Shown here: piece by piece, positions 1,714 to 48,197 of the stretch
How the letters are laid out: each line of letters opens with the position of its first letter
Numbering within the stretch: position 1 is the first letter of the stretch
Origin: Chaetoderma sp. LZ-2023a
Taxonomy: Eukaryota > Mollusca > Caudofoveata > Chaetodermatida > Chaetodermatidae
Assembly (NCBI GenBank): GCA_034401795.1
Contig: CM067369.1
Span: 189,988,630-190,052,629, forward strand
Direction: 5' to 3'
DNA: 64,000 nucleotides
Position numbers and translations under genes: made by a program
Notes under the pieces: model-generated
What the model was told of the DNA's origin: nothing
The model's database searches: none
The model's input: only the letters and a program-made list of their open reading frames with translations

Positions 1714-4650
1714 TTATTTTTTCAAAACCGACAAGGCGAGAGGATTAGAGGTGTCACGGAGATAATGGTCTGTAAAACTTGACTCACAGTGCCACTGAGC
1801 CACCGACATAATATCATCCACAGGGACCCCATTAAATAGGGCCGTGGATGTCACTACGCCGCGGACACTGTGAGCCTTGGCCACGTCAACCTGCTTCCCG
1901 GTGGCGGATTTATGGCAAAACTGAATGCACTCCACAATCCACCTGGAAATGGTGTCCTTAGAAGCCCTCCCATGGGGTTCAATATATGACAACCATAACG
2001 CTGACTGGTCGGTGCGCCATGCCGCCGTACGTTGTTTGTACCGGCGCAGCGCCCGGACGGGACACCATGCTTTAGAATTAGGATCATATCTAGTTAAAGC
2101 AGGCAAAATAATAGGTTGACCTGGATATTTCAACGACTGATTTTTAGCCAAGAAATTAATCCTAGGTAGCAGCTTAAGGCCTTCCCCTGAAACCACAAAA
2201 CGGTCATCCTCGGCTGATAAGGCATGAATCTCACTCCTACGCCTAGCCGAGGCCGCAGCAATTAAAAACACAGTCTTCAGTGTTAATAGTTTCATAGAAA
2301 TGGAACTAAGTGGTTCAAAAGGCTTATCACCTAGTACTTGAAGCACTAGCGATAAACTCCAAGACGGAATCACAGGAGGATTCCTTGGTCTTAGATTGCC
2401 CATGCCTTTAATTAATACATTCAATGTATTTACTTCATCACTTCCCCTCTTAGCCAAGCAAGGAATAACAGACATTAATGCTGATTTATAACCAGCAATA
2501 GAGTTAGGCTTGAGGCTATAGGCATCATAGAGGTGACAGAGGAAATCAGCTACTACTTGAATAGATGAATCCATTGGATCAATACATCTTTTTGAGCACC
2601 ATTCTGCAAATCTGTTGATTTTATAATTATATGCTCTGGAGGTTGACCCCCTCCTGGCTTTGGCCATAAACATGGCTGCTTGCTCAGAAAAGCCCTCCTT
2701 AATTCTAGATTCCTTGACAACATCCACGCAGTCAATCTGAACATTGACGGATTGTTGTGAAGGGCCTTGCCCTGGAAGATAATATCGTCCATCAGAGGCA
2801 GAGGAACCGGATTGCAGACCAGAAGGTCCAGCAGATCCGTATACCATGATCGGCTTGGCCAATCCGGGGCGATCAGAAGCACTTGGCATTCCTCTTGTCT
2901 GATTTTCTGAAGAATTTTTGGAATCAGGATTGCTGGAGGGAATGCGTATGCATACATTCTCCCCCAGCTGATAGCTAACGCATCTGTTGCGAAAGCGCTT
3001 GGATCCGGAATCGGAGAGACGTACGTCGTCATCTTCGCATTCTTGCTCGTTGCGAACAAATCGATGTTGGGTTTCCCCCAATGGTCGAACAGACGATCCG
3101 CCACACATTGATTTAGTTGCCATTCCGTGGGTAAAACACTCATCCTTCGGCTCAATGAGTCTGCAAGCAGGTTTAACCTTCCCGGAATATGAACTGCTTT
3201 CAAGGTAATCTGGTGATCCAGACACCAACATAGCAGTTTCCATGTCATCATACAGAGACTGGGCGACTTCGTTCCGCCCTGGCGGTTTATGTAAGTCACA
3301 ACTGTTGAGTTGTCTGAACGAATAAGAACAATCTTGCCCTGAACTTTCTGTAAGAAATGTTCCAGGCCCAGGACTACTGCTCTTAGCTCCAGTAGATTTA
3401 TATGTTCCTGTGACTGTTCCAGATTCCAAAGCCCTGATATCGTGGATTCTTCCAGGCAAGCTCCCCAGCCCTCCATCGATGCATCTGTATACACAGTCAC
3501 CTGAGGGTGGGGAGGGGTTAGCAAAACCCCCGGTAAGAGATTCTCTGTATTCAACCACCATTGCAGGTGGTGAATCAGAGGCGCCAACACTGACACATTC
3601 GAGTCCAGCGAACCTGTACTCTGGGTCCATTGTGTCATGAGAAACAACTGGATCGGCCGCCTGCGTAAGGCGGCCTGAGGAATGACTGGTTCCAACGAAA
3701 CCATCAACCCCAGCATTCTCAAGTAAACCCGTGCCAGGACATGACGACTGTCGCACACTGACTGAATCAACGAGATGAGTATTTGAACCCTCTCCTGAGT
3801 AGGATAAACATATCCTGTCTCCAGATCGAAGAACATCCCCAGGTAAACAAACTTCTGGGATGGAGTCAGCTCTGATTTTGGGAAATTGATCATCCAGCCC
3901 AAGTCTGTGAGAATTTTCAAAACAATCTCCAGATTGGCGGACAAATTTTCCCGGGTGTGCGCTTTCAACAGCCAGTCGTCTATGTACGTGTGGACTGCTA
4001 TGCTTCTCCTGCGGAGGTATGCTGTGATCGCAAGAACCACACGGGTGAAAACCCGAGGAGCCGTGGAAATTCCGAAGGGCAACACCCTGAATTCCCACTG
4101 TCTGCCCTGGAATGCAAATCTCAGGAAGCGACAGAAACTCCTGTGGATGGGGATGTGGAAATAAGCGTCCTTCAAATCTATCGACGCCGTCCACATCCCC
4201 CTCTCCAACCCCGCCAACACCGAGCGCACCGTTTCCATCTTGAAACTGGGCGTCTCGATGAACTTGTTCAATGGCTTGAGGTTGAGAATCGGTCTCCACC
4301 CACCGGTGCGTTTTGTTACCAAGAACAGGGTTGAATAGAAGCCCGGACACCTCTGTGCCGGCTGAATAGCTCCTTTTTGTACGAGGGAATTTATCTCCTC
4401 CTCGATACACAACCTTTGATCTGGATCTCTCGGAACGGGAGTCCAGATTGGCACCAGAGACAGTCGCGACGGCGGGCCTGTCATCCACTCTGGATGATAC
4501 CCCACGGAAAGCCATCGCAAGACTAAACGGTCCTGAGTTAACCGTTCCCACTCTTGCATGTGGTCGGCAAGCCGGCCTCCCACCGGTCCACCTAGGGACC
4601 GCGGTGGACACAAGGCATGCAAGAGCGGCACTGTCTCCGTCGCCATACAC
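1714..4650 (-). CDS. DIRS-A1 tyrosine recombinase ORF
   Basis: The open frame is 978 codons. The recognisable tyrosine recombinase covers about the last 370 (1714-2847), with box A Arg in ARRRSEIHAL (near 803), H-x2-R in AHSVRG (927/930), WH (953/954) and the nucleophile Tyr in DHYLRD (963). It would integrate the circular cDNA. Upstream codons overlap the RT ORF in another frame. The frame is the gag frame, open right after the gag stop at 4684, and the 4650 start is only GTG. An ATG at 2847 would give 377 residues but is not kept in A3. The start is unresolved. Confidence 0.9.
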   Translation of the reverse strand: MYGDGDSAALACLVSTAVPRWTGGRPACRPHARVGTVNSGPFSLAMAFRGVSSRVDDRPAVATVSGANLDSRSERSRSKVVYRGGDKFPRTKRSYSAGTEVSGLLFNPVLGNKTHRWVETDSQPQAIEQVHRDAQFQDGNGALGVGGVGEGDVDGVDRFEGRLFPHPHPQEFLSLPEICIPGQTVGIQGVALRNFHGSSGFHPCGSCDHSIPPQEKHSSPHVHRRLAVESAHPGKFVRQSGDCFENSHRLGLDDQFPKIRADSIPEVCLPGDVLRSGDRICLSYSGEGSNTHLVDSVSVRQSSCPGTGLLENAGVDGFVGTSHSSGRLTQAADPVVSHDTMDPEYRFAGLECVSVGASDSPPAMVVEYRESLTGGFANPSPPSGDCVYRCIDGGLGSLPGRIHDIRALESGTVTGTYKSTGAKSSSPGPGTFLTESSGQDCSYSFRQLNSCDLHKPPGRNEVAQSLYDDMETAMLVSGSPDYLESSSYSGKVKPACRLIEPKDECFTHGMATKSMCGGSSVRPLGETQHRFVRNEQECEDDDVRLSDSGSKRFRNRCVSYQLGENVCIRIPSSNPDSKNSSENQTRGMPSASDRPGLAKPIMVYGSAGPSGLQSGSSASDGRYYLPGQGPSQQSVNVQIDCVDVVKESRIKEGFSEQAAMFMAKARRGSTSRAYNYKINRFAEWCSKRCIDPMDSSIQVVADFLCHLYDAYSLKPNSIAGYKSALMSVIPCLAKRGSDEVNTLNVLIKGMGNLRPRNPPVIPSWSLSLVLQVLGDKPFEPLSSISMKLLTLKTVFLIAAASARRRSEIHALSAEDDRFVVSGEGLKLLPRINFLAKNQSLKYPGQPIILPALTRYDPNSKAWCPVRALRRYKQRTAAWRTDQSALWLSYIEPHGRASKDTISRWIVECIQFCHKSATGKQVDVAKAHSVRGVVTSTALFNGVPVDDIMSVAQWHCESSFTDHYLRDTSNPLALSVLKK

Positions 4651-4739
4651 ACCGGCGTGGTCCTTACCGCGGTAAGCGCCCTGTCAGGAACGATAACCAC
4701 GCCCAGATCCTCGCGCGACCCGCCCCGCCCCGCGCGCAC
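2553..4739 (-). CDS. DIRS-A1 reverse transcriptase / RNase H / MT-like ORF
   Basis: Copies element RNA into cDNA. By residue of this frame: RT about 110-330 with SIDLKDAYFHIP (Asp 188, 191) and the YIDDW box (252-256); RNase H about 414-535 with TDAS (Asp 419), LELRA (Glu 451), RSDNS (Asp 476) and LLADSLS (Asp 527); a DAM-methylase-like domain about 545-650 (NIDLFA, YAFPP, LLIAPDWPS). It overlaps the end of gag and lies in +1 relative to it. No conserved ATG precedes the RT domain, so translation probably comes by frameshift from gag at the TCC-TGA at 4684-4689. Looks intact. Confidence 0.95.
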   Translation of the reverse strand: MRAGRGGSREDLGVVIVPDRALTAVRTTPVCMATETVPLLHALCPPRSLGGPVGGRLADHMQEWERLTQDRLVLRWLSVGYHPEWMTGPPSRLSLVPIWTPVPRDPDQRLCIEEEINSLVQKGAIQPAQRCPGFYSTLFLVTKRTGGWRPILNLKPLNKFIETPSFKMETVRSVLAGLERGMWTASIDLKDAYFHIPIHRSFCRFLRFAFQGRQWEFRVLPFGISTAPRVFTRVVLAITAYLRRRSIAVHTYIDDWLLKAHTRENLSANLEIVLKILTDLGWMINFPKSELTPSQKFVYLGMFFDLETGYVYPTQERVQILISLIQSVCDSRHVLARVYLRMLGLMVSLEPVIPQAALRRRPIQLFLMTQWTQSTGSLDSNVSVLAPLIHHLQWWLNTENLLPGVLLTPPHPQVTVYTDASMEGWGACLEESTISGLWNLEQSQEHINLLELRAVVLGLEHFLQKVQGKIVLIRSDNSTVVTYINRQGGTKSPSLCMMTWKLLCWCLDHQITLKAVHIPGRLNLLADSLSRRMSVLPTEWQLNQCVADRLFDHWGKPNIDLFATSKNAKMTTYVSPIPDPSAFATDALAISWGRMYAYAFPPAILIPKILQKIRQEECQVLLIAPDWPSRSWYTDLLDLLVCNPVPLPLMDDIIFQGKALHNNPSMFRLTAWMLSRNLELRRAFLSKQPCLWPKPGGGQPPEHIIIKSTDLQNGAQKDVLIQWIHLFK
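4683..4689 (-). other. A1 gag stop TCC-TGA-C: predicted recoding site
   Basis: gag ends CGT TCC TGA C. Slipping +1 gives GAC AGG GCG, exactly the RT frame. Reading through TGA continues in the recombinase frame, which is open. TCC-TGA is the shift context known from ornithine decarboxylase antizyme. A palindrome, CTTACCGCGGTAAG, lies just downstream. Recoding is inferred. Confidence 0.6.
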
Positions 4740-6744
4740 CTCGGTGCACGGGCGGCTGCCTGGCTGACGGCGGCTGAGGAGCCTGCGCCCCCCTCACTGC
4801 TGGCCGAATCGCACGCGGCCGAGGCCGGCGCTGCGACGGCGGCTGGCCTCTGACTTGGCCAGCACCACCTCGAGCCTGCAGGGGACGATACGCAGGGGCC
4901 GCGGCGCGAACGTTAGCACGACGCAGTACCTCAAACTGTTCGCGCAGCGCCCTCTGGTTATTCACCAGGGTGACCGTCTCCTGGAGGTGGCGACATCCCT
5001 CACCTCCAAAAAGACCAGGACCCGTCATAGGCGTACGGAGTAGCCTATTATACAGGTCCTGAGACGGGCACAAATTGTCCAGGGCAAAAGTGCGTCTTGC
5101 CCTGACACTCCTGGTCACCGCCCGCGTCATACAGTCCAGCGCCAGGTTAACACCATCCTGGATGGTACGCTGGACCGCGAGCGGGCCTGGCTGGCGCGAT
5201 GCGGATGCCGTTACTACCCCCTGTAACAGCTGGGAGACGTGGGACAGAGCGGCAATCGAAGCCCGCCCACTCTCCTCCGCATCACGCAACGCGGTATTCG
5301 CCGAACGCAACGCGTTCGCGCACAAGACCCCCGCGTCAGAACGGGATCCTGGCCGCGTATCCTCACCCAAAGCCGCGCGGTCATCCACGCTGGGCTTGGG
5401 TACCACACCGTACCGCTGGTAGTCCAGGGGCACGATGCGACAACGCTTGGCCACCTCGCGAGGGGCCTTCGCGAGACGTCCACTCGTGTTAATGGACGCC
5501 TCCGCCGCCTTGAACATGTCAACGACATGCTCCGCCAGCGGCAGAGAAGGCATAGCGTTAGCAGTTGGATTCCCAGCTAACCACGGCGTGTGAACACGGT
5601 GGCTAGCCGACTGCTCCACGGGCAGATCAGGCCTAACGCTCACCAACCACTGGCAAGCGTTATACCAATCCTCCTCCGTGGCTAACTGCGAGCGCTCTAC
5701 AAGACGGGGTCCTTCGTCTTCCTCCTGAGCGCAAGCAGTACTTGACGGCGGGTACGCTGATACACCTGGCAAGCCAGGGAAAACATGCGGGCCTGTCAGC
5801 ACCGGCATGAGAATATCACTGGTTTGACCAGGAGCAGGCACCGCGGTAGAGCGCGGGGTATATATAGCTCTACCACGGGCCCGGCCAGCACCAGCTACAC
5901 TCTCGGCAAGCCGAGGTATGCGGTACCGCTGGCCATCAGCAGCGCCCTGGGCCACCACCTGAACCGCGGACCTTACTCCAGGGTGAGTAATACCGTGGAA
6001 AAAAGCGCCTGTATTCCCCGCGAGGGGTGCACAAACGTCTTCATCCATGTCCACGTCGTCAGACGGCGACCCTAGCAGGTAATCCTCATCACCCTGGTCA
6101 GAAAGATTAGACCCCGGGTCAGCAAAGAGAGCTAACCCGGGCTGACCAGGAACGGTGCCATAGGAGGTACTGGCCACCGCGGCGTGCGGATACCCCTGGA
6201 CTGATAAGCAGCCAGCGGGTTCCAGCGACAACCGTCCACGGTCCCCTATCGGCGCGGCAATAAGCCTGCTGCCAGGGCCGTGGAACGCCCCCTCTAATGG
6301 GGCCACCTCTGAATCGTCGGACAACGGAAGCGGACTAAGGAAAATCGATCCAGAGGCGGGGATTACCTGCTCCGAAGCCGATGACGAGGACAATAAAGGA
6401 TCTGGTCCAGGAAGCATGCCACGAAGCAACCCTGGAACCAAATCTTTTATTGTCCTCCTCATCTCTCCCAACATCTCGGTCCGGAAGGTCTCCATATCCA
6501 CCGCGGACGAGACCTTCCCCTTACCCTTCTCACTTACAACCTCTCGTTTCCGCTTCTTCTTCTTCTCCACCACTACCACCTTGTCCGTCGCCTGTAAGCA
6601 GCACAAGAATTCGGACATTAACACGCCCCCCCAGTGCTTACATATGTCACAATTAATCAATGGACCACAAGGGCTACATCGATAACACAGATGCGGCCAG
6701 AACTTCAGATGCATAAAACGTCCACAGGACGCGCAACCCGGTCC
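4684..6744 (-). CDS. DIRS-A1 gag, main exon
   Basis: Predicted structural protein that packages element RNA. Exon 2 starts after a pyrimidine-rich acceptor (GCCCTGTTTCAG) at GGA CCG GGT TGC. Joined to 7508-7558 it gives 703 residues. The exon begins with a Cys/His cluster (C-x2-C, H-x-C-x2-C-x2-C, C-x2-C), then a Lys-rich stretch, acidic linkers, a conserved helical core (FALDNLCPSQ, GPGLFGGEGCRHLQETV) and an Arg/Gly/Gln/Pro-rich tail that could bind RNA. The unspliced frame has an ATG at 6885, but A2 and A3 lack it, so splicing is the better model. Confidence 0.85.
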   Translation of the reverse strand, partial: GPGCASCGRFMHLKFWPHLCYRCSPCGPLINCDICKHWGGVLMSEFLCCLQATDKVVVVEKKKKRKREVVSEKGKGKVSSAVDMETFRTEMLGEMRRTIKDLVPGLLRGMLPGPDPLLSSSSASEQVIPASGSIFLSPLPLSDDSEVAPLEGAFHGPGSRLIAAPIGDRGRLSLEPAGCLSVQGYPHAAVASTSYGTVPGQPGLALFADPGSNLSDQGDEDYLLGSPSDDVDMDEDVCAPLAGNTGAFFHGITHPGVRSAVQVVAQGAADGQRYRIPRLAESVAGAGRARGRAIYTPRSTAVPAPGQTSDILMPVLTGPHVFPGLPGVSAYPPSSTACAQEEDEGPRLVERSQLATEEDWYNACQWLVSVRPDLPVEQSASHRVHTPWLAGNPTANAMPSLPLAEHVVDMFKAAEASINTSGRLAKAPREVAKRCRIVPLDYQRYGVVPKPSVDDRAALGEDTRPGSRSDAGVLCANALRSANTALRDAEESGRASIAALSHVSQLLQGVVTASASRQPGPLAVQRTIQDGVNLALDCMTRAVTRSVRARRTFALDNLCPSQDLYNRLLRTPMTGPGLFGGEGCRHLQETVTLVNNQRALREQFEVLRRANVRAAAPAYRPLQARGGAGQVRGQPPSQRRPRPRAIRPAVRGAQAPQPPSARQPPVHRGARGAGRVARGSGRGYRS

Positions 6745-7507: not shown

Positions 7508-7558
7508 CTGATTTAAAGGTCCAACGTCCTCCGGTGGCGAAGTGTATCCTCCCGCCAT
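7508..7558 (-). CDS. DIRS-A1 gag exon 1
   Basis: ATG plus 16 codons (MAGGYTSPPEDVGPLNQ) ending CAG before GTGACT. It splices in phase 0 over a 763-base intron (6745-7507) to the main gag exon. The same layout recurs in every DIRS copy here, with diverged peptides, which argues against chance. Confidence 0.78.
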
Positions 7559-14209: not shown

Positions 14210-17146
14210 TTATTTTTTCAAAACCGACAAGGCGAGAGGATTAGAGGTGTCACGGAGATAATGGTCTGTAAAACTTGACTCACAGTGCCACTGAGCCACC
14301 GACATAATATCATCCACAGGGACCCCATTAAATAGGGCCGTGGATGTCACTACGCCGCGGACACTGTGAGCCTTGGCCACGTCAACCTGCTTCCCGGTGG
14401 CGGATTTATGGCAAAACTGAATGCATTCCACAATCCACCTGGAAATGGTGTCCTTAGAAGCCCTCCCATGGGGTTCAATATATGACAACCATAACGCTGA
14501 CTGGTCGGTGCGCCATGCCGCCGTACGTTGTTTGTACCGGCGCAGCGCCCGGACGGGACACCATGCTTTAGAATTAGGATCATATCTAGTTAAAGCAGGC
14601 AAAATAATAGGTTGACCTGGATATTTCAACGACTGATTTTTAGCCAAGAAATTAATCCTAGGTAGCAGCTTAAGGCCTTCCCCTGAAACCACAAAACGGT
14701 CATCCTCGGCTGATAAGGCATGAATCTCACTCCTACGCCTAGCCGAGGCCGCAGCAATTAAAAACACAGTCTTCAGTGTTAATAGTTTCATAGAAATGGA
14801 ACTAAGTGGTTCAAAAGGCTTATCACCTAGTACTTGAAGCACTAGCGATAAACTCCAAGACGGAATCACAGGTGGATTCCTTGGTCTTAGATTGCCCATG
14901 CCTTTAATTAATACATTCAATGTATTTACTTCATCACTTCCCCTCTTAGCCAAGCAAGGAATAACAGACATTAATGCTGACTTATAACCAGCAATAGAGT
15001 TAGGCTTGAGGCTATAGGCATCATAGAGGTGACAGAGGAAATCAGCTACTACTTGAATAGATGAATCCATTGGATCAATACATCTTTTTGAGCACCATTC
15101 TGCAAATCTGTTGATTTTATAATTATATGCTCTGGAGGTTGACCCCCTCCTGGCTTTGGCCATAAACATGGCTGCTTGCTCAGAAAAGCCCTCCTTAATT
15201 CTAGATTCCTTGACAACATCCACGCAGTCAATCTGAACATTGACGGATTGTTGTGAAGGGCCTTGCCCTGGAAGATAATATCGTCCATCAGAGGCAGAGG
15301 AACCGGATTGCAGACCAGAAGGTCCAGCAGATCCGTATACCATGATCGGCTTGGCCAATCCGGGGCGATCAGAAGCACTTGGCATTCCTCTTGTCTGATT
15401 TTCTGAAGAATTTTTGGAATCAGGATTGCTGGAGGGAATGCGTATGCATACATTCTCCCCCAGCTGATAGCTAACGCATCTGTTGCGAAAGCGCTTGGAT
15501 CCGGAATCGGAGAGACGTACGTCGTCATCTTCGCATTCTTCTTCGTTGCGAACAAATCGATGTTGGGTTTCCCCCAATGGTCGAACAGACGATCCGCCAC
15601 ACATTGATTTAGTTGCCATTCCGTGGGTAAAACACTCATCCTTCGGCTCAATGAGTCTGCTAGCAGGTTTAACCTTCCCGGAATATGAACTGCTTTCAAG
15701 GTAATCTGGTGATCCAGACACCAACAAAGCAGTTTCCATGTCATCATACAGAGACTGGGCGACTTCGTTCCGCCCTGGCGGTTTATGTAAGTCACAACTG
15801 TTGAGTTGTCTGAACGAATAAGAACAATCTTGCCCTGAACTTTCTGTAAGAAATGTTCCAGGCCCAGGACTACTGCTCTTAGCTCCAGTAGATTTATATG
15901 TTCCTGTGACTGTTCCAGATTCCAAAGCCCTGATATCGTGGATTCTTCCAGGCAAGCTCCCCAGCCCTCCATCGATGCATCTGTATACACAGTCACCTGA
16001 GGGTGGGGAGGGGTTAGCAAAACCCCCGGCAAGAGATTCTCTGTATTCAACCACCATTGCAGGTGGTGAATCAGAGGCGCCAACACTGACACATTCGAGT
16101 CCAGCGAACCTGTACTCTGGGTCCATTGTGTCATGAGAAACAACTGGATCGGCCGCCTGCGTAAGGCGGCCTGAGGAATGACTGGTTCCAACGAAACCAT
16201 CAACCCCAGCATTCTCAAGTAAACCCGTGCCAGGACATGACGACTGTCGCACACTGACTGAATCAACGAGATGAGTATTTGAACTCTCTCCTGAGTAGGA
16301 TAAACATATCCTGTCTCTAGATCGAAGAACATCCCCAGGTAAACAAACTTCTGGGATGGAGTCAGCTCTGATTTTGGGAAATTGATCATCCAGCCCAAGT
16401 CTGTGAGAATTTTCAAAACAATCTCCAGATTGGCGGACAAACTTTCCCGGGTGTGCGCTTTCAACAGCCAGTCGTCTATGTACGTGTGGACTGCTATGCT
16501 TCTCCTGCGGAGGTATGCTGTGATCGCAAGAACCACACGGGTGAAAACCCGAGGAGCCGTGGAAATTCCGAAGGGCAACACCCTGAATTCCCACTGTCTG
16601 CCCTGGAATGCAAATCTCAGGAAGCGACAGAAACTCCCGTGGATGGGGATGTGGAAATAAGCGTCCTTCAAATCTATCGACGCCGTCCACATCCCCCTCT
16701 CCAACCCCGCCAACACCGAGCGCACCGTTTCCATCTTGAAACTGGGCGTCTCGATGAACTTGTTCAATGGCTTGAGGTTGAGAATCGGTCTCCACCCACC
16801 GGTGCGTTTTGTTACTAAGAACAGGGTTGAATAGAAGCCCGGACACCTTTGTGCCGGCTGAATAGCTCCTTTTTGTATGAGGGAATTTATCTCCTCCTCG
16901 ATACACAACCTTTGCTCTGGATCTCTCGGAATGGGAGTCCAGATTGGCACCAGAGACAGTCGCGACGGCGGGCCTGTCACCCACTCTGGATGATACCCGA
17001 CGGAAAGCCATCGCAAGACTAAACGGTCCTGAGTTAACCGTTCCCACTCTTGCATGTGGCCGGCTAGCCGGCCTCCCACCGGCCCACCTAGGGACCGCGG
17101 TGGACACGAGGCATGCAAGAGCGGCACTGTCTCCGCCGCCATACAC
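14210..17146 (-). CDS. DIRS-A2 tyrosine recombinase ORF
   Basis: 978 codons, collinear with the A1 frame and with the same catalytic set (ARRRSEIHAL, HSVRG, WH, HYLRD). The recombinase proper covers 14210-15343, where an in-frame ATG lies at 15343. The rest overlaps the RT ORF. The 17146 start is GTG. No breaks seen. Confidence 0.9.
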   Translation of the reverse strand: MYGGGDSAALACLVSTAVPRWAGGRPASRPHARVGTVNSGPFSLAMAFRRVSSRVGDRPAVATVSGANLDSHSERSRAKVVYRGGDKFPHTKRSYSAGTKVSGLLFNPVLSNKTHRWVETDSQPQAIEQVHRDAQFQDGNGALGVGGVGEGDVDGVDRFEGRLFPHPHPREFLSLPEICIPGQTVGIQGVALRNFHGSSGFHPCGSCDHSIPPQEKHSSPHVHRRLAVESAHPGKFVRQSGDCFENSHRLGLDDQFPKIRADSIPEVCLPGDVLRSRDRICLSYSGESSNTHLVDSVSVRQSSCPGTGLLENAGVDGFVGTSHSSGRLTQAADPVVSHDTMDPEYRFAGLECVSVGASDSPPAMVVEYRESLAGGFANPSPPSGDCVYRCIDGGLGSLPGRIHDIRALESGTVTGTYKSTGAKSSSPGPGTFLTESSGQDCSYSFRQLNSCDLHKPPGRNEVAQSLYDDMETALLVSGSPDYLESSSYSGKVKPASRLIEPKDECFTHGMATKSMCGGSSVRPLGETQHRFVRNEEECEDDDVRLSDSGSKRFRNRCVSYQLGENVCIRIPSSNPDSKNSSENQTRGMPSASDRPGLAKPIMVYGSAGPSGLQSGSSASDGRYYLPGQGPSQQSVNVQIDCVDVVKESRIKEGFSEQAAMFMAKARRGSTSRAYNYKINRFAEWCSKRCIDPMDSSIQVVADFLCHLYDAYSLKPNSIAGYKSALMSVIPCLAKRGSDEVNTLNVLIKGMGNLRPRNPPVIPSWSLSLVLQVLGDKPFEPLSSISMKLLTLKTVFLIAAASARRRSEIHALSAEDDRFVVSGEGLKLLPRINFLAKNQSLKYPGQPIILPALTRYDPNSKAWCPVRALRRYKQRTAAWRTDQSALWLSYIEPHGRASKDTISRWIVECIQFCHKSATGKQVDVAKAHSVRGVVTSTALFNGVPVDDIMSVAQWHCESSFTDHYLRDTSNPLALSVLKK

Positions 17147-17430
17147 ACCGGAGTGGTTCTTACCGCGGTAAGCGTCCTGTCAGGACCGATAACCACGCCC
17201 AGATCCTCGCGCGCCCCGCCCCGCCCCGCGCGCACCTCGGTGCGCGGGCGGCTGCCTGGCTGACGGCGGCTGAGGAACCTGCGCCCCCCTCGCTGCTGGC
17301 CGAATCGCACGCGGCCGAGGCCGACGCTGCGACGGTGGCTGGCCACTGACCTGGCCAGCACCACCTCGAGCCTGCAGGGGACGATACGCCGGGGCCGCGG
17401 CGCGAGCGTTAGCACGACGCAGCACATCAA
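15049..17430 (-). CDS. DIRS-A2 reverse transcriptase / RNase H / MT-like ORF
   Basis: Same domains as A1, with YIDDW, TDAS, LELRA, RSDNS and LLADSLS all present, so probably active. The frame is open farther upstream than in A1 (to 17430, inside gag) only because stops are missing there. The meaningful entry is the +1 shift at the gag stop, 17180. A Lys replaces the Ser of A1 in the LFATxKNAKM motif. Confidence 0.95.
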   Translation of the reverse strand: MMCCVVLTLAPRPRRIVPCRLEVVLARSVASHRRSVGLGRVRFGQQRGGRRFLSRRQPGSRPRTEVRAGRGGAREDLGVVIGPDRTLTAVRTTPVCMAAETVPLLHASCPPRSLGGPVGGRLAGHMQEWERLTQDRLVLRWLSVGYHPEWVTGPPSRLSLVPIWTPIPRDPEQRLCIEEEINSLIQKGAIQPAQRCPGFYSTLFLVTKRTGGWRPILNLKPLNKFIETPSFKMETVRSVLAGLERGMWTASIDLKDAYFHIPIHGSFCRFLRFAFQGRQWEFRVLPFGISTAPRVFTRVVLAITAYLRRRSIAVHTYIDDWLLKAHTRESLSANLEIVLKILTDLGWMINFPKSELTPSQKFVYLGMFFDLETGYVYPTQERVQILISLIQSVCDSRHVLARVYLRMLGLMVSLEPVIPQAALRRRPIQLFLMTQWTQSTGSLDSNVSVLAPLIHHLQWWLNTENLLPGVLLTPPHPQVTVYTDASMEGWGACLEESTISGLWNLEQSQEHINLLELRAVVLGLEHFLQKVQGKIVLIRSDNSTVVTYINRQGGTKSPSLCMMTWKLLCWCLDHQITLKAVHIPGRLNLLADSLSRRMSVLPTEWQLNQCVADRLFDHWGKPNIDLFATKKNAKMTTYVSPIPDPSAFATDALAISWGRMYAYAFPPAILIPKILQKIRQEECQVLLIAPDWPSRSWYTDLLDLLVCNPVPLPLMDDIIFQGKALHNNPSMFRLTAWMLSRNLELRRAFLSKQPCLWPKPGGGQPPEHIIIKSTDLQNGAQKDVLIQWIHLFK
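17179..17185 (-). other. A2 gag stop TCC-TGA-C: predicted recoding site
   Basis: gag ends CGG TCC TGA C. The +1 frame (GAC AGG ACG) is the RT ORF and the zero frame beyond TGA is the recombinase frame. The downstream palindrome of A1 is conserved. Confidence 0.6.
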
Positions 17431-37153: not shown

Positions 37154-40006
37154 TTATTTCCTGAGGACTGAGACGGCGAGTGGGTTAGAAGTGTCACGAA
37201 GGTAATGGTCGGTAAAACTTGACTCACAGTGCCACTGGGCTACTGACATAATGTCTTCAATCGAAACACCATTAAATAATGCCGTGGAAGTTACCACACC
37301 ACGGACACTATGAGCCTTGGCTCTATCTACCTGGATTCCAGTGGCTGTCTTATGACAGAATTGGATACATTCCACTATCCATCTGGAAATAGTGTCTCTT
37401 GACGCCCTACCATGGGGTACAATATATGACAACCATAGGGAACATGGGTCCGTCCGCCAAACCTGAGTTCTTTTCTTGTACTTATTCAAAGCACGGACTG
37501 GACACCATACTTTAGCACCAGGATCATATCTGGTTAAGGCAGGTAAAATAATAGGTTTACCCGGATACTTTAAAGATTGATTCTTAGCCAAGAAATTCAA
37601 TCTAGGTAGAAGCTTAAGGCCTTCACCTGTAACTATATAACGGTCAGGCTCAGCAGACAAGGCATGAATTTCACTCCTGCGTCTGGCTGAAGCCGCCGCC
37701 ACTAAAAATACAGTTTTAAGTGTCAATAATTTTACAGATATAGCACTAAGTGGTTCAAAAGGCTTACCACTCAAAACCTGCAGAACCAGAGAAAGACTCC
37801 ATGACGGTGTCAGTGGAGGATTTCTAGGTCTGAGATTGCCCATACCTTTAATAAGAGTATTTAAAACACTTACTTCATCACTTCCCCTCTTTGCCAAGCA
37901 AGGGATAACAGTCATCAATGCTGATTTGTATCCAGCAACAGAATTAGGTTGAAGACTATAGGTATCATACAGGTGACATAGAAAATCAGCTACTACCTGA
38001 ATAGATGCTTCCATCGGATTGATACATCTCTTTGAGCACCATTCTGCAAATCTGTTGATTTTATAATTATAAGCTCTGGAGGTTGACCCCCTCCTGGCTC
38101 TGGCCATGAAATTGGCTGCTTGCTCAGAAAATCCCTCCTTAATTGCGGATTGTTTGACAACATCCATGCAGTCAATCGAAACATTGACGGATTGTTGTGA
38201 AGGGTCTTGCCCTGGAAGATAATATCGTCCATCAGCGGCAGAGGAACCGGATTGCAAACCAGAAGGTCCAGCAGATCCGTAAACCATGATCGGCTTGGCC
38301 AATTCGGGGCGATCAGAAGCACTTGGCATTCCTCTTGTCTGATCTTCTGAAGGACTCTTGGAATCAGGATTGTTGGAGGGTATGCGTATGCATACATTCT
38401 CTTCCAACTGATAGCTAGCGCATCTATTGCGATAGCGCTTGGATCTGGAATCGGAGAAACGTACGTCGTCATCTTCGCATTCTTCTTCATTGCGAACAAA
38501 TCTATGTTGGGCTTTCCCAAATGATTGAACAGGTGATCCGCCACACATTGATTTAGTTGCCATTCCGTAGGCAGAATACTCATCCTTCGGCTCAATGAGT
38601 CTGCTAACAGATTCAGCCTTCCCGGAATATGAACTGCTTTCAAGGTGATCATATGATCCATGCACCAGCAAAGCAGCTTCCATGTCATCATACAGAGACT
38701 GGGCGACTTCGTTCCGCCCTGGCGGTTTATGTAACTCACTACTGTAGAGTTGTCTGAACGTATCATCACAAATTTTCCCTTCACCTCCCCTAGGAAGTGT
38801 TCCAGGCCTAGAACTACAGCCCGCAGTTCTAGCATGTTGATATGTTCCTTTGAATGTTCCAGATTCCAAAGCCCTGATATAGTGGCTTCTTCCAGGCAAG
38901 CTCCCCAACCCTCCATCGATGCATCCGTAAACATCGTTACTTGAGGGTGGGGAGGGGTCAGCATGACCCCCGCCAGGAGATTTCCTCTCTCCATCCACCA
39001 ATGAAGGTGATGAATGAGAGGGTCCAACACTTGAATGCGCGAGTCCAGTGATCCTGAACTCTGCGTCCACTGGGTCATGAGAAACAACTGAATCGGCCGC
39101 CTGCGTAAGGCCGCCTGAGGAATGACCGGTTCCATTGAAACCATCAGACCCAACATTCTCAGATAGACCCGTGCTAGAATATAACGACTGTTGCACACCA
39201 ACTGAATACACGAGAGGAAACTTTCCACTCTCTCCTGGGACGGATAAACATATCCTATCTCCAGATCGAAGAACATACCCAGGTAAACAAACTTCTGGGA
39301 TGGAGTCAGCTCTGATTTCGGAAAGTTGATCATCCAGCCTAAATCTGTGAGAGTTTCCAAGACTATCTCCAGATTTGCTGTCAAACTTTCTGGGTTGTGT
39401 GCTTTTAGCAACCAGTCGTCTATGTAAGTGTGAACAGGTATATTTCTCCTGCGGAGGTATGCCGTGATAGCAAGTACCACTCGAGTGAAGACCCTTGGAG
39501 CCGTCGAGATGCCGAATGGAAGAACCTTGAATTCCCATTGGCGTCCCTGAAAAGCAAATCTCAGGAACCGACGAAACCTCCTTGCAATTGGAATGTGGAA
39601 GTAAGCATCCTTGAGATCTATAGATGCTGTCCACATCCCCTTCTCTAACCCCAACAACACCGATCTCACTGTTTCCATTTTGAAAGTCGGAGTGTCTAAA
39701 AACTTGTTTAGAGGCTTGAGGTTGAGAATTGGTCTCCACCCCCCGGTGTTCTTTGCCACAAGAAACACGGTTGAATAGAAGCCCGGGCAATCCTGCGCCG
39801 GTTGAATTGCTTCTTTTAGAACGAGAGAATCTATCTCCTCTTCTATGCACAACCGCTTGTCTGGATCTCGTGGAACTTGAGTCCAGACCGGTACCAGAGA
39901 CAAATGCAACGGCGGACCTCTTATCCAATCTGGACTGTATCCCTGCGAAAGCCATTGCAAGACTAAGCGGTCCTGAATTAACCGCGCCCACTTCTGAATG
40001 TGACAA
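37154..40006 (-). CDS. DIRS-B1 tyrosine recombinase ORF
   Basis: 950 codons. Recombinase domain 37154-38287 (ATG at 38287), with ARRRSEIHAL, AHSVRG, WH and HYLRD. The C-terminal domain is very like family A, and the upstream part overlapping RT is also open without a stop. The frame continues open to the gag stop at 40136; the 40006 start is TTG, so it is not a likely initiator. Confidence 0.9.
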   Translation of the reverse strand: MSHSEVGAVNSGPLSLAMAFAGIQSRLDKRSAVAFVSGTGLDSSSTRSRQAVVHRRGDRFSRSKRSNSTGAGLPGLLFNRVSCGKEHRGVETNSQPQASKQVFRHSDFQNGNSEIGVVGVREGDVDSIYRSQGCLLPHSNCKEVSSVPEICFSGTPMGIQGSSIRHLDGSKGLHSSGTCYHGIPPQEKYTCSHLHRRLVAKSTQPRKFDSKSGDSLGNSHRFRLDDQLSEIRADSIPEVCLPGYVLRSGDRICLSVPGESGKFPLVYSVGVQQSLYSSTGLSENVGSDGFNGTGHSSGGLTQAADSVVSHDPVDAEFRITGLAHSSVGPSHSSPSLVDGERKSPGGGHADPSPPSSNDVYGCIDGGLGSLPGRSHYIRALESGTFKGTYQHARTAGCSSRPGTLPRGGEGKICDDTFRQLYSSELHKPPGRNEVAQSLYDDMEAALLVHGSYDHLESSSYSGKAESVSRLIEPKDEYSAYGMATKSMCGGSPVQSFGKAQHRFVRNEEECEDDDVRFSDSRSKRYRNRCASYQLEENVCIRIPSNNPDSKSPSEDQTRGMPSASDRPELAKPIMVYGSAGPSGLQSGSSAADGRYYLPGQDPSQQSVNVSIDCMDVVKQSAIKEGFSEQAANFMARARRGSTSRAYNYKINRFAEWCSKRCINPMEASIQVVADFLCHLYDTYSLQPNSVAGYKSALMTVIPCLAKRGSDEVSVLNTLIKGMGNLRPRNPPLTPSWSLSLVLQVLSGKPFEPLSAISVKLLTLKTVFLVAAASARRRSEIHALSAEPDRYIVTGEGLKLLPRLNFLAKNQSLKYPGKPIILPALTRYDPGAKVWCPVRALNKYKKRTQVWRTDPCSLWLSYIVPHGRASRDTISRWIVECIQFCHKTATGIQVDRAKAHSVRGVVTSTALFNGVSIEDIMSVAQWHCESSFTDHYLRDTSNPLAVSVLRK

Positions 40007-40392
40007 GTCAAACGACCTCCCACTGGTGCACCTAGGGTTGACGGGGTGCCCATAAACTTCAGAAGTGGGTGTGTCTCTGATACGAGTGGCAACACCCCAG
40101 TGGTACTTGTGATAACCGGAAAAAATTTTCTTGCGTCAGGCCCGGTTACCACGCGCCGCTCCCCGCGCGCCGCGACCAGCGCCACGCGCACCACGGTGCG
40201 CGGGCTGCTGCCTGGCAGGCTGCGCTTGAGGCGGCGGCTGTCGCACAACAGCACGCTGCTGCTGGCGTAGCCGACGCGGTCTCTGAAACCGGCCGGCCTG
40301 CTGGCCTCTGACACTGCCAGCCCCGCCACGAGCGTACGGCTGTCGAGCAGCCGAGGGCTGAACACGCACGTGTTCCCTGCGCAGCACTTCAA
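37993..40392 (-). CDS. DIRS-B1 reverse transcriptase / RNase H / MT-like ORF
   Basis: RT with SIDLKDAYFHIP and YIDDWLL, RNase H with FTDASMEGWG, MLELRA, RSDNS and LLADSLS, then the NIDLFAMKKNAKM methyltransferase-like domain. Every catalytic residue noted in A1 is kept. The frame opens inside gag, and the productive entry is again +1 at the gag TGA (40136). Confidence 0.95.
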   Translation of the reverse strand: MKCCAGNTCVFSPRLLDSRTLVAGLAVSEASRPAGFRDRVGYASSSVLLCDSRRLKRSLPGSSPRTVVRVALVAARGERRVVTGPDARKFFPVITSTTGVLPLVSETHPLLKFMGTPSTLGAPVGGRLTCHIQKWARLIQDRLVLQWLSQGYSPDWIRGPPLHLSLVPVWTQVPRDPDKRLCIEEEIDSLVLKEAIQPAQDCPGFYSTVFLVAKNTGGWRPILNLKPLNKFLDTPTFKMETVRSVLLGLEKGMWTASIDLKDAYFHIPIARRFRRFLRFAFQGRQWEFKVLPFGISTAPRVFTRVVLAITAYLRRRNIPVHTYIDDWLLKAHNPESLTANLEIVLETLTDLGWMINFPKSELTPSQKFVYLGMFFDLEIGYVYPSQERVESFLSCIQLVCNSRYILARVYLRMLGLMVSMEPVIPQAALRRRPIQLFLMTQWTQSSGSLDSRIQVLDPLIHHLHWWMERGNLLAGVMLTPPHPQVTMFTDASMEGWGACLEEATISGLWNLEHSKEHINMLELRAVVLGLEHFLGEVKGKFVMIRSDNSTVVSYINRQGGTKSPSLCMMTWKLLCWCMDHMITLKAVHIPGRLNLLADSLSRRMSILPTEWQLNQCVADHLFNHLGKPNIDLFAMKKNAKMTTYVSPIPDPSAIAIDALAISWKRMYAYAYPPTILIPRVLQKIRQEECQVLLIAPNWPSRSWFTDLLDLLVCNPVPLPLMDDIIFQGKTLHNNPSMFRLTAWMLSNNPQLRRDFLSKQPISWPEPGGGQPPELIIIKSTDLQNGAQRDVSIRWKHLFR
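40135..40141 (-). other. B1 gag stop GCC-TGA-C: predicted recoding site
   Basis: gag ends CGG GCC TGA C. The +1 frame is RT. The zero frame is open for about 990 codons into the recombinase. The P-site codon is GCC here rather than TCC. Confidence 0.5.
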
Positions 40393-45168: not shown

Positions 45169-48066
45169 TTATTGTTTCAAAATCGACAAGGCGAGAGGGT
45201 TAGAGGTGTCACGGAGGTAATGGTCTGTAAAACTTGACTCACAGTGCCACTGAGCCACTGACATAATATCATCCACAGGGACCCCATTAAAAAGGGCAGT
45301 GGATGTCACGACACCGCGGACACTGTGAGCCTTGGCCACGTCAACCTGTCGCCCGGTGGCGGATTTGTGACAAAATTGAATACATTCCACAATCCACCTA
45401 GAAATGGTGTCCTTAGACGCCCTACCATGGGGTTCAATATATGACAACCATAACGCTGACTGGTCGGTACGCCACTCCGAAGTACGCTGTTTGTACCGGA
45501 GCAGCGCCCGTACGGGGCACCATACTTTAGAATTAGGATCATATCTAGTTAAAGATGGCAAAAAAATAGGCTGACCTGGATATTTCAATGACTGATTTTT
45601 AGACAAGAAATTAATCCTAGGTAGAAGCTTAAGGCCTTCCCCTGTAACCACAAAACGGTCAACCTCGGCTGATAAGGCGTGAATTTCACTCCTACGCCTC
45701 GCCGAGGCCGCAGCAATTAAAAATACAGTTTTAAGAGTTAACATTTTCATAGAAATGGAACTAAGTGGTTCAAAAGGCTTATCACCTAGTACCTGGAGCA
45801 CCAGTGATAAACTCCAAGACGGAATCAGTGGAGGATTCCTTGGTCTTAGATTGCCCATGCCTTTAATTAATACATTTAATGTACTTACTTCATCACTCCC
45901 CCTATTAGCCAAGCAAGGAATAACAGTCATTAAAGCTGACTTATAACCAGCAATAGAGTTAGGCTTGAGGCTATAGGCATCATATAGGTGACAGAGGAAA
46001 TCAGCCACTACCTGAATAGATGATTCCATTGGATCAATACATCTTTTTGAGCACCATTCTGCAAATCTGTTGATTTTATAATTATATGCTCTGGAGGTTG
46101 ACCCCCTCCTGGCTTTGGCCATAAACATGGCCGCTTGCTCAGAAAAGCCCTCCTTAATTCTAGATTCCTTGACAACATCCACGCAGTCAATCGGAACATT
46201 GACGGATTGTCGTGAAGGGCCTTGCCCTGGAAGATAAGGTTGTCCATCAGAGGCAGCGGAACCGGATTGCAGACCAGAAGGTCCAGCAGATCCGTATACC
46301 ACGATCGGCTTGGCCAATCCGGGGCGATCAGAAGCACTTGGCACTCCTGCTGCCTGATTTTCTGAAGCACCTTTGGAATCAGGATTGCTGGGGGGAATGC
46401 GTATGCATACATTCCCTCCCAGCTGATAGCTAACGCATCTGTTGCGAAAGCGCTTGGGTCTGGAATCGGAGAGACGTACGTCGTCATCTTCGCATTCTTC
46501 TTCATCGCGAACAAATCTATGTTGGGTTTCCCCCAATGGTCGAACAGACGATCCGCCACACATTGATTTAGTTGCCATTCCGTGGGTAAAACACTCATCC
46601 TTCGGCTCAATGAGTCTGCTAGCAGATTTAACCTCCCCGGAATATGAACTGCTTTCAAGGTGATCCCATGATCCAGGCACCAACAAAGCAGTTTCCATGT
46701 CATCATACAGAGACTGGGCGACTTCGTTCCGCCCTGGCGGTTTATGTAAGTCACTACTGTTGAGTTGTCTGAACGAATTAGAACAATCTTGCCCTGAACT
46801 TTCTGTAAGAAATGTTCCAGGCCCAGGACTACTGCTCTTAGCTCTAGTAGATTGATATGTTCCTTGGACTGATCCAGATCCCAAAGCCCTGATACTGTGG
46901 ACTCTTCCAGACAAGCTCCCCACCCCTCCATCGATGCATCTGTATACACAGTCACCTGAGGGTGGGGAGGGGTTAGCAAAACCCCCGGCAAGAGATTCTC
47001 TGTATTCAACCACCATTGCAGGTGGTGAATCAGAGGCGCCAATACTGACACGTTCGAGTCCAGCGAACCTGAACTCTGGGTCCACTGTGTCATGAGAAAC
47101 AACTGGATCGGGCGCCTGCGTAAGGCGGCCTGCGGAATGACTGGTTCCAAAGAAACCATCAAGCCCAGCATTCTCAAGTAAACCCGTGCCAGGACATGAC
47201 GACTGTCGCACACCGACTGTATTACCGAGATGAGTATTTGAACCCTCTCCTGAGTGGGGTACACATACCCCGTCTCCAGATCGAAGAACATGCCCAGGTA
47301 AACAAACTTCTGGGATGGAGTTAGCTCTGATTTCGGGAAATTGATCATCCAGCCCAAGTCCGAGAGAGTTTTCAAAACAATCTCCAGATTGGCTGACAAT
47401 GATTCCCGGGTGTGTGCTTTCAACAGCCAGTCGTCTATGTACGTGTGGACTGCTATGCTTCTCCTGCGGAGGTATGCAGTGATCGCGAGAACCACACGGG
47501 TGAAGACCCGAGGAGCCGTGGAAATCCCGAAGGGTAACACCCTGAATTCCCACCGCCGGCCCTGAAATGCAAATCTCAGGAAGCGACGGAAACTCCTCTC
47601 TATGGGAATGTGGAAATAAGCATCCTTCAAATCTATCGACGCCGTCCACATTCCTCGCTCTAACCCCGCCAACACCGAGCGCACAGTCTCCATCTTGAAA
47701 CTGGGCGTCTCTATGAACTTGTTCAATGGCTTGAGGTTGAGAATCGGCCTCCACCCTCCGGTGTTTTTTGGTACTAAGAACAGGGTTGAATAAAAGCCCG
47801 GGCACCTTAGTGCCGGCTGAATGGCTCCTTTTTGTATGAGGGAATTTATTTCCTCCTCTATACACAACCTCTGATCCGGATCCCGTGGAATAGGAGTCCA
47901 GATCGGCGCGAGAGACAGTCGCGATGGCGGGCCTGTCAGCCAGTCGGGACGATACCCGACTGAAAGCCATCGCAAGACTAAACGGTCCTGAGTCAACCGT
48001 TTCCACTCTGGCAAGTGGCCGGCCAAACGGCCGCCCACCGGTCCACCTAGGGATAGAGGTGGACAT
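45169..48066 (-). CDS. DIRS-A3 tyrosine recombinase ORF
   Basis: 965 codons from an ATG at 48066; the frame is open to the gag stop at 48139. Domain and catalytic residues as in A1. The ATG used as a possible recombinase start in A1, A2 and B1 is GTG here (near 46302), so that internal start cannot be general. Confidence 0.9.
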   Translation of the reverse strand: MSTSIPRWTGGRPFGRPLARVETVDSGPFSLAMAFSRVSSRLADRPAIATVSRADLDSYSTGSGSEVVYRGGNKFPHTKRSHSAGTKVPGLLFNPVLSTKKHRRVEADSQPQAIEQVHRDAQFQDGDCALGVGGVRARNVDGVDRFEGCLFPHSHREEFPSLPEICISGPAVGIQGVTLRDFHGSSGLHPCGSRDHCIPPQEKHSSPHVHRRLAVESTHPGIIVSQSGDCFENSLGLGLDDQFPEIRANSIPEVCLPGHVLRSGDGVCVPHSGEGSNTHLGNTVGVRQSSCPGTGLLENAGLDGFFGTSHSAGRLTQAPDPVVSHDTVDPEFRFAGLERVSIGASDSPPAMVVEYRESLAGGFANPSPPSGDCVYRCIDGGVGSLSGRVHSIRALGSGSVQGTYQSTRAKSSSPGPGTFLTESSGQDCSNSFRQLNSSDLHKPPGRNEVAQSLYDDMETALLVPGSWDHLESSSYSGEVKSASRLIEPKDECFTHGMATKSMCGGSSVRPLGETQHRFVRDEEECEDDDVRLSDSRPKRFRNRCVSYQLGGNVCIRIPPSNPDSKGASENQAAGVPSASDRPGLAKPIVVYGSAGPSGLQSGSAASDGQPYLPGQGPSRQSVNVPIDCVDVVKESRIKEGFSEQAAMFMAKARRGSTSRAYNYKINRFAEWCSKRCIDPMESSIQVVADFLCHLYDAYSLKPNSIAGYKSALMTVIPCLANRGSDEVSTLNVLIKGMGNLRPRNPPLIPSWSLSLVLQVLGDKPFEPLSSISMKMLTLKTVFLIAAASARRRSEIHALSAEVDRFVVTGEGLKLLPRINFLSKNQSLKYPGQPIFLPSLTRYDPNSKVWCPVRALLRYKQRTSEWRTDQSALWLSYIEPHGRASKDTISRWIVECIQFCHKSATGRQVDVAKAHSVRGVVTSTALFNGVPVDDIMSVAQWHCESSFTDHYLRDTSNPLALSILKQ

Positions 48067-48197
48067 AAGGAGTGCCAGAGTGGCACTGTTCTCTCGGCGT
48101 GAAACACCGGAGTGGTTCCCACCGCGGTAACCGGGCCATCAGGCCCGATTACCGCGACCAGATCCCCGCGCGCCCCGCCCAGCGCCGCGCGCACCAC
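46008..48197 (-). CDS. DIRS-A3 reverse transcriptase / RNase H / MT-like ORF
   Basis: All catalytic motifs are present (SIDLKDAYFHIP, YIDDW, TDAS, LELRA, RSDNS, LLADSLS). The Met that precedes the RT domain in A1 and A2 (in VCMAxET) is replaced by VFHAERT, so no ATG near the ORF start is shared by family A. This again points to expression through gag. Confidence 0.95.
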   Translation of the reverse strand: MVRAALGGARGDLVAVIGPDGPVTAVGTTPVFHAERTVPLWHSLCPPLSLGGPVGGRLAGHLPEWKRLTQDRLVLRWLSVGYRPDWLTGPPSRLSLAPIWTPIPRDPDQRLCIEEEINSLIQKGAIQPALRCPGFYSTLFLVPKNTGGWRPILNLKPLNKFIETPSFKMETVRSVLAGLERGMWTASIDLKDAYFHIPIERSFRRFLRFAFQGRRWEFRVLPFGISTAPRVFTRVVLAITAYLRRRSIAVHTYIDDWLLKAHTRESLSANLEIVLKTLSDLGWMINFPKSELTPSQKFVYLGMFFDLETGYVYPTQERVQILISVIQSVCDSRHVLARVYLRMLGLMVSLEPVIPQAALRRRPIQLFLMTQWTQSSGSLDSNVSVLAPLIHHLQWWLNTENLLPGVLLTPPHPQVTVYTDASMEGWGACLEESTVSGLWDLDQSKEHINLLELRAVVLGLEHFLQKVQGKIVLIRSDNSTVVTYINRQGGTKSPSLCMMTWKLLCWCLDHGITLKAVHIPGRLNLLADSLSRRMSVLPTEWQLNQCVADRLFDHWGKPNIDLFAMKKNAKMTTYVSPIPDPSAFATDALAISWEGMYAYAFPPAILIPKVLQKIRQQECQVLLIAPDWPSRSWYTDLLDLLVCNPVPLPLMDNLIFQGKALHDNPSMFRLTAWMLSRNLELRRAFLSKRPCLWPKPGGGQPPEHIIIKSTDLQNGAQKDVLIQWNHLFR
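48138..48144 (-). other. A3 gag stop GCC-TGA-T: predicted recoding site
   Basis: gag ends CGG GCC TGA T. RT lies in +1 and the recombinase in the zero frame. The base after TGA is T, unlike the C of the other copies. Confidence 0.5.

Follow-up and report, generated by a model that had tools for sequence, protein, structure and literature searches.

The window, a stretch of 64,000 nucleotides from Chaetoderma sp. LZ-2023a, contains five DIRS1-like elements (A1, A2, A3, B1, and C1), all located on the minus strand. Inverted terminal repeats are present in all five copies, with arms of 162 nt (100% identity) in A1, A2, and A3, 175 nt (98%) in B1, and 161 nt (98%) in C1. Positions 1-616 of the window repeat the 5' end of C1 and represent a further C-type element cut by the window edge. 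The elements had been described in a first-pass annotation as three families that differ strongly; judged by reverse transcriptase (RT) identity to the A family this applies to C (58%), whereas B is a near relative (83%) and A1-A3 are subfamilies of one family. In A1, the second exon of gag extends to the TGA at 4684..6744, as assigned from the open reading frame, the acceptor and its phase, and the RT/RNase H frame, which would be entered by a +1 slip, occupies 2553..4685. Both RT and RNase H were found in this frame, with a Pfam match to RVT_1 (E 3.1e-22) and one to RT_RNaseH of 22.4 bits, the latter below the cut-off of 24.8. The same frame presumably encodes a methyltransferase as well, which we take from the general layout of the DIRS family.

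Gag ends in TCC-TGA or GCC-TGA in all five copies, as previously noted. The TGA is located at 4684..4686 in A1 (TCC-TGA-C; the candidate site for +1 shifting and readthrough), 17180..17182 in A2 (TCC-TGA-C), 48139..48141 in A3 (GCC-TGA-T), 40136..40138 in B1 (GCC-TGA-C), and 56374..56376 in the decayed copy C1 (TCC-TGA-C), all on the minus strand; the site numbers of the first-pass annotation mark the +4 base and not the TGA itself. The bases at +4 to +6 are CAG, CAG, TGG, CGC, and CGG in A1, A2, A3, B1, and C1, respectively. RT occupies the frame +1 to that of gag in five of five copies (15049..17181 in A2, 46008..48140 in A3, 37993..40137 in B1, and 55278..56375 up to the first stop in C1), and a +1 slip at the gag TGA would thus lead into RT as reported. 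The zero frame had been described as open straight past the same TGA into the recombinase (YR). This holds for A1, A2, and A3 (989 codons each; 14210..17179 in A2 and 45169..48138 in A3) and for B1 (993 codons, 37154..40135), all on the minus strand; C1 is decayed, with a stop after 309 codons (55444..56373, minus strand), a second break near 54,300, and a break of the gag frame upstream.

Gag appears to start in a leader exon, so that a spliceosomal intron would be kept inside the retrotransposon. As inferred from the sequence, the A1 leader exon (7508-7558, minus strand) carries the gag ATG and 17 codons and ends in CAG/GTGACT, with the acceptor at 6744. The corresponding exons and acceptors are located at 20009-20059 and 19243 in A2, 50953-51003 and 50187 in A3, 43089-43136 and 42156 in B1, and 58875-58907 and 58346 in C1, all on the minus strand. 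The leader exons consist of whole codons followed by GTGACT, GTGACA, or GTTGTA, and their phase fits the acceptor before the Cys-rich gag start. The splice scores are based on frequency matrices, by which the B1 and C1 donors score below the listing threshold. Judging from these signals, the gag leader is probably spliced and the elements probably use the spliceosome, so that alternative transcripts may also be made. A second in-phase acceptor is found ~150 nt further on in A and B. B1 contains a run of 11 G at 42040-42050, near the start of the gag frame, and since the distance from acceptor to stop is not divisible by three in this copy, an indel at or near this run has probably broken B1 gag.

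Spliced mRNAs that start RT and recombinase separately from gag were the alternative named in the first-pass annotation, and of this only the spliced leader finds probable support. No acceptor before RT or recombinase common to the families was found, and the acceptors within 340 nt of the gag stop are weak or differently placed in each family, with none in the RT frame in all. A1 and A2 show a weak acceptor-like RT-frame site 77 nt before the stop (scores of 4.2 and 4.9). In the 3' region, a perfect donor-like GAG/GTAAGT occurs on the minus strand at 1159 (A1), 13657 (A2), 44619 (A3), and 36551 (B1), which may only reflect the inverted repeats. Very strong acceptor-like sites are located inside the recombinase on the minus strand at 37777 in B1 (TTCTGCAG/GTTT) and 54020 in C1 (TTCTACAG/GTTT), 2361 and 2356 nt past the stop, and are probably due to coding constraint.

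With respect to RT entry, A3 has all three frames intact and no RT-frame AUG before the RT motifs. RT-frame ATGs were likewise lacking within 260 nt in A3-like loci (n=11), and only scattered RT-frame AUGs were observed in C-family copies (5 of 26). In other copies, +1-frame AUGs occur 37 nt (A1 and A2) and 82 nt (B1) past the stop, and at codon 2 past the stop in five of eight family D and one of two family E copies (both families are described below), so that RT could start there by reinitiation; only the A3-like and C copies would argue against this. The antizyme-type arrangement of a +1 downstream ORF without a start of its own is thus found in A3, whereas A1, A2, and B1 have an AUG. Differences between A1 and A3 over the last 35 gag codons number 4, 3, and 9 at gag positions 1, 2, and 3, those in the 20 codons directly after the stop are spread with little preference for a frame (7, 4, and 9 by RT position), and those further on fall mainly at RT position 3 (2, 2, 7; 3, 4, 8; 3, 1, 11). 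By this measure, the constrained frame switches near the gag TGA. Since A3 has no RT AUG, the sequence of A3-like copies supports well that RT is entered by +1 recoding at the gag UGA; the other copies are consistent with it, and a +1 slip at the stop is the simplest account of RT access. A slip had been said to land exactly in RT, which is true in all five copies; the RT frame is already open from 107 nt upstream of the stop in A1 and A3, so landing in RT is not special to the TGA, and any slip within the last ~36 gag codons of these copies would also reach it.

The zero frame beneath RT was analyzed by exchanging synonymous RT codons with the RT protein kept and counting zero-frame stops (2000 exchanges per copy). 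Over the 710-714 codons shared with RT, A1, A2, A3, and B1 contain no zero-frame stop, where 25.5, 24.9, 23.0, and 32.1 are expected from the RT's own codon usage and 34.3, 33.6, 35.0, and 35.7 from the codon usage of gag and recombinase; the lowest count among the 2000 exchanges per copy was 12. C1 has one stop against about 29 expected (four stretches summed). The control frames were not depleted, with 28, 24, and 20 stops against 26.2, 20.2, and 17.5 expected in the equivalent frame of gag (A1, A3, and B1), and 33, 35, and 32 against 23.7, 25.3, and 27.2 in recombinase-only sequence of the same copies. The third frame of the overlap carries 49-61 stops, and a general scarcity of stops is thus ruled out as the source of the open zero frame. 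On these counts, the zero frame across RT is under selection to stay stop-free in A1, A2, A3, and B1, which backs the open frame of the first-pass annotation in a stronger form than was originally given. Stops are strongly depleted downstream of the first zero-frame ATG; before that ATG, 0.3-1.9 stops are expected per window copy, and a count of zero tells little for a single copy.

Four-fold degenerate sites of RT coincide with zero-frame first positions, and were used as a test of conservation of the zero-frame peptide. Between A1 and B1, differences at such sites were observed at 107 of 196 in gag, 73 of 167 in RT codons 60-480, 8 of 82 from codon 480 to the end, and 58 of 105 in recombinase-only sequence; relative to the last of these, the P value is 0.08 for codons 60-480 and 3e-11 for codon 480 on. 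The A3-B1 pair shows 79/168, 12/84, and 53/106 and the A1-A3 pair 38/195, 8/91, and 24/120 for RT 60-480, 480 to the end, and recombinase-only sequence, respectively. The first ~480 zero-frame codons are thus kept open with their sequence unconserved, and amino-acid constraint is confined to the last ~230. In A1, these parts correspond to a stop-free, amino-acid-neutral corridor at 3250..4683 (lower edge approximate), a constrained overlap containing the N-terminal part of the recombinase at 2553..3250 (upper edge approximate), and a recombinase-only part at 1714..2552, all on the minus strand. The functional N-terminus of the recombinase, as placed by these sites, starts near RT codon 480. 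Because the corridor is open yet unconserved, ribosomes probably enter the zero frame near the gag stop. An in-frame extension under coding constraint, as expected from readthrough, is thus found at the gag UGA, and an internal AUG would give the same signal.

Further loci were drawn from the same genome (2.44 Gb). All 30 A1-type loci read, cut from at least 128 matches and including A1 of the window, have CGT-TCC-TGA-CAG. These matches, at least 128 in number with 99-100% identity over 309 aa and no internal stop, point to a recent amplification. In the A/B subfamilies, NCC-TGA followed by C or T was found by pattern in 19 of 20 loci (the exception being L070), with T at +4 in 14 of the 19. 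The C family, represented by 30 loci from at least 112 matches (C1 included), shows the pattern in 26, and TCC-TGA is the last zero-frame stop before RT in 24; L033, L036 (TCG-TGA), L052, and L054 fall outside it. Searching for the YLDDW pattern, we obtained 139 matches (4 in the reversed control), which led to two additional families, D and E. Junctions were read in nine of 20 loci from this search (L083, L086, L088, L089, L090, L096, L098, L099, and L100), the other 11 being left out as truncated, decayed, or not DIRS, and in seven of 13 loci of a second set (L101, L102, L104, L105, L108, L109, in which the stop is lost, and L110).

Family E (L086 and L110) has GTT-TGA-A and an RT with 54% identity to that of A1. 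RT is in the +1 frame at codon 38 in both copies, the -1 frame is closed at codon 7, and the zero frame is open for 149 codons in L086 and at least 78 in L110. Gag was assigned by position in this family, being continuous in L110 only, with the gag-like stretch upstream in L086 out of frame. Family D, whose RT is 64-69% identical to that of A1 (three longer copies compared), has ACC-TGA in seven of eight copies and AGC-TGA in one (L101), with G or A at +4. Its RT is in the +1 frame in three of eight copies (L102, L104, and L105, the last interrupted by a stop at codon 15); L088 and L098 have it in frame 0, and L090, L101, and L108 in -1. All eight copies have a stop in the -1 frame within 27 codons. 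A CT-rich (CT)n stretch between the gag stop and RT in L088, L090, L098, L101, L102, L104, L105, and L108 would explain this scatter, and a frame-0 layout may also apply to family D. The comparison of gag ends proposed in the first-pass annotation, carried out here on further families of the same genome, thus recovered the +1 relation fully in E and partly in D. Over the RT segment up to YLDDW, zero-frame stops observed against expected were 1 vs 8.8 in L086, 0 vs 5.3 in L090, 1 vs 6.6 in L094, 1 vs 8.4 in L098, and 2 vs 2.2 in L088 (41 codons only). The one copy assigned to family F, L087, is decayed, and its gag and RT frames are indistinguishable. As judged across these families, the arrangement of frames is genuine and under selection, and it extends beyond the window.

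The P-site codon before UGA is UCC, GCC, ACC, or GUU across families A-E, all regarded as shift-prone in an antizyme-type context. Single-copy exceptions are TCG (L036), CCC (L045), AGC (L101), and the lost stop of L109; the junction was looked for and not found in L033, L052, L054, and L070. In all four codons bases 2 and 3 are equal pyrimidines, followed by U, so that the tRNA in the P-site, after moving forward by one base, could pair again at two of its three positions. In families A-D, base 1 of the last codon varies and bases 2 and 3 are constant, a pattern based on few independent events that looks like the reverse of ordinary coding drift. The shared ending had been taken as a sign of selection. 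In the window alone the NCC-TGA ending is weak evidence for this, since gag itself is homologous, and the view gains weight from families D and E. The claim that UGA followed by C acts as a leaky stop in these elements does not stand as a rule; the +4 base varies among the A/B, D, and E loci, being T in most A/B loci, and UGA-G or UGA-A, as in families D and E, is expected to terminate better. The common feature is thus X-Y-Y-UGA and not a leaky UGA-C. A leaky readthrough context such as UGA-CUA was found neither in the window copies nor in D (GGG/AGG) or E (AGG).

Folding of a 75-nt segment that begins 5 nt after the stop gave z-scores of +0.6, -1.2, -1.9, +0.1, and 0.0 for A1, A2, A3, B1, and C1, and no family-wide nested 3' structure was found in this segment (pseudoknots being outside the model). 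Around 100 nt past the stop, A1, A2, and A3 fold better than their shuffled versions (z-scores of -3.5, -4.0, and -2.4), and B1 and C1 do not (-0.7 and -0.5). A downstream hairpin common to the families is not supported by these scores, as they are not low in all copies.

In Gag-Pol +1 frameshifting of the Ty1/Ty3 type, the shift takes place at sense codons and not at the gag stop. The DIRS elements would resemble this type in the +1 entry into pol from gag, and differ from it in having the proposed shift at the gag stop. In human cells, both a readthrough and a +1 product have been measured at OAZ1 (UCC-UGA) and at OPRL1 (PMC9841425). According to that report, UCC before UGA mainly steers +1 shifting in OAZ1 reporters, UGA-C weakens termination with a gain in both +1 shifting and readthrough, and GCC in the P-site permits OPRL1 readthrough to the same degree as the wild-type codon GCA (PMC9841425). 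These reporter results make both outputs at one gag UGA physically plausible here. As in OAZ1, a +1 shift would occur at UGA with UCC in the P-site and with readthrough competing at the same UGA. The OAZ1 site has a conserved 3' pseudoknot and polyamine control (PMC9841425), whereas no shared structure was found in the DIRS copies, their P-site codon is UCC, GCC, ACC, or GUU, and their product would be a Gag fusion. Moloney murine leukaemia virus (PMC5009743) and Candida Tca2 (PMC2194720) also have a single stop between gag and an in-frame ORF. Downstream of that stop they carry pol, with a 3' pseudoknot that has been described or proposed (PMC5009743, PMC2194720), while the in-frame ORF of DIRS is the recombinase beneath RT, with RT in another frame.

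The recombinase might also be reached from an AUG of its own. A zero-frame AUG with G at +4 was found 48-90 codons past the UGA in every family read (missing in L040, L048, L058, and L071), the G being always present because the AUG overlaps an RT Trp codon. In A1 this ATG is GCGATGG at 4513..4515 and in B1 GCAATGG at 39953..39955, both on the minus strand. It falls at the RT VLxW motif in A (CGA TGG), B (CAA), C (CAA), and D (GGA); in family E the VLxW ATG is absent and a different zero-frame ATG occurs. RT Trp codons preceded by A number 5 of 18, 4 of 19, 4 of 17, and 5 of 15 in A1, A3, B1, and C1, or about a quarter. The zero-frame interval from the TGA to the first strong ATG is stop-free in eight of nine sequences, L104 having two stops, with expected numbers of 0.35-0.83 (A), 0.91 (B), 1.71 (C), 0.26-1.38 (E), and 1.9-2.42 (D). 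Combined over families this gives P ~0.0003-0.08, depending on the copies chosen, and entry at the UGA is favoured at that level only. In A1 and A2, two RT-frame ATGs and one third-frame ATG lie ahead of the zero-frame ATG.

The recombinase is taken to be of the tyrosine type; a Pfam scan of the window's own protein gave no match, and the catalytic R, HxxR, and Y were read by eye. In a protein search with the zero-frame ORF, in which the best 7995 word-sharing candidates were scored, 11 proteins were found. Eight of these, 864-978 aa in length, span 86-93% of the ORF with 27-32% identity, and one of 666 aa within the same identity range spans 64%; the last two cover 45% (a gene model with the name eIF2B) and 32% of it. 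Among three relatives scanned, P0003 matches Phage_int_SAM_4 (28.1 against a cut-off of 27), and P0003 and P0007 match Phage_integrase below the cut-off. P0003, P0006, and P0007 start with a Met aligning close to the zero-frame AUG, with the reservation that gene callers pick starts mechanically. The eIF2B subunit beta isoform X1 model of the caecilian Microcaecilia unicolor (P0010) matches the recombinase, and is probably a chimeric annotation.

Taken together, we consider it close to an even call that in these DIRS1-like elements three proteins branch at one gag UGA, by termination, a +1 slip, and zero-frame continuation. Most ribosomes would end at the UGA and give Gag. Some would slip +1, with the P-site tRNA re-pairing on X-Y-Y, and produce Gag-RT-RNase H. 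Still others would stay in the zero frame past the stop, the simplest way being to decode UGA as a sense codon, and yield Gag-recombinase. We infer the slip itself, the re-pairing of the tRNA, readthrough as the means of zero-frame entry, and the product ratio from features that can be read in the sequence, namely the frame layout, the A3 RT without AUG, the selected absence of stops, the ~480 unconserved codons, and the recurrence in distant families. A zero-frame route to the recombinase means that the whole zero frame beneath RT must stay stop-free. The stricter version, in which a single UGA is decoded three ways by design and the ~480-codon corridor exists only for readthrough transit, is somewhat more doubtful. 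The first-pass annotation had assigned both routes to this one UGA; +1 entry into RT is supported, whereas readthrough into YR is not established and is weakened by the zero-frame AUG, which could start YR. With readthrough of the same UGA, the zero frame is open from the stop on and nothing else is needed. Readthrough into YR is thus plausible and we would rank it ahead of an internal AUG, a close rival, if not by far. That rival, in which the +1 shift makes Gag-RT and the recombinase starts at its own AUG (the ATGG over the RT Trp codon) by reinitiation or from another transcript, is a serious possibility that we would on balance not expect to hold. It accounts for a zero frame that is open downstream of this AUG, and agrees with the Met starts of the three relatives and with the retention of the VLxW ATG in A, B, C, and D when an A precedes no more than about one in four RT Trp codons. 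It does not account for the stop-free interval between UGA and AUG, the three ATGs that come first in A1 and A2, or the replacement of the VLxW ATG by another in family E, and reinitiation after an ORF of ~700 codons is usually inefficient.

Two other explanations leave the gag UGA as an ordinary stop or give it no role in recoding, and we regard both as unlikely. RT and/or recombinase could be made from alternatively spliced mRNAs, using the leader or another donor, in line with the leader ATG exon and in-phase acceptor of all three window families and the weak RT-frame site upstream of the stop in A1 and A2. The acceptors near the stop are, however, weak or family-specific, with no RT-frame acceptor present in every family, and if splicing took place near the recombinase there would be no need for ~480 codons that are free of stops and otherwise unconserved. 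It is about equally improbable that the shared ending is an inherited gag C-terminus (Arg-Ser/Ala/Thr-stop) without recoding, with RT made from later AUGs or by low-level nonspecific means. Gag ends are alignable among A, B, and C, and the +1-frame AUGs past the stop in A1, A2, B1, and part of the D and E copies would serve such a route; against this, bases 2-3 of the last codon are CC in nearly all copies when base 1 varies (T, G, A), family E has another codon and still Y-Y before UGA, A, B, C, and E agree in the frame relation of RT, and the A3 RT is without an AUG.

Piednoel et al. (2011, PMC3266345) described recombinase and pol ORFs that overlap in half of a set of 28 DIRS1-like elements, among them two from X. 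tropicalis, and ORF overlap in DIRS has also been noted in Xenopus (PMC9210276). The elements described here share Gag, RT/RNase H, a putative tyrosine recombinase, inverted terminal repeats, and the overlap of this ORF with pol with those of PMC3266345, a source whose available parts contain no statement on translation of the overlapping ORFs, gag-stop recoding, selection on a corridor, or a +1/zero branch. The long overlap has been on record since at least 2011, with no functional explanation found in those parts (PMC3266345), and no account of gag-stop recoding in DIRS was found in the available parts of PMC3266345, PMC9210276, PMC9004415, PMC6681497, and PMC5633606; older reviews may discuss expression. 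The corridor suggests a purpose for the overlap, in that ribosomes would cross ~480 zero-frame codons from near the gag end. If branching at the gag UGA is true, three-way decoding would be how long-overlap DIRS elements control the relative amounts of the three products. Should both routes operate at this one UGA, a mobile element would provide a natural site of three-way decoding, on which the competition of termination with readthrough and +1 shifting could be modelled.

No gag homologues were found in the protein database among 7983 candidates scored, and a search for the DNA of relatives in viral contigs, genome contigs, plasmids, and phages gave nothing usable. In the protein search with RT, 628 relatives were found, 120 of which were listed. 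Among these, a 619-aa RT from a 4.9-kb JGI contig (P0012) is 98% identical to the RT of A1 and represents a very close relative in a metagenome. P0033 and P0064 are DIRS-type RTs deposited under the bacterial MAG names Sedimenticola and Candidatus Thiodiazotropha, probably reflecting host DNA in the bins.
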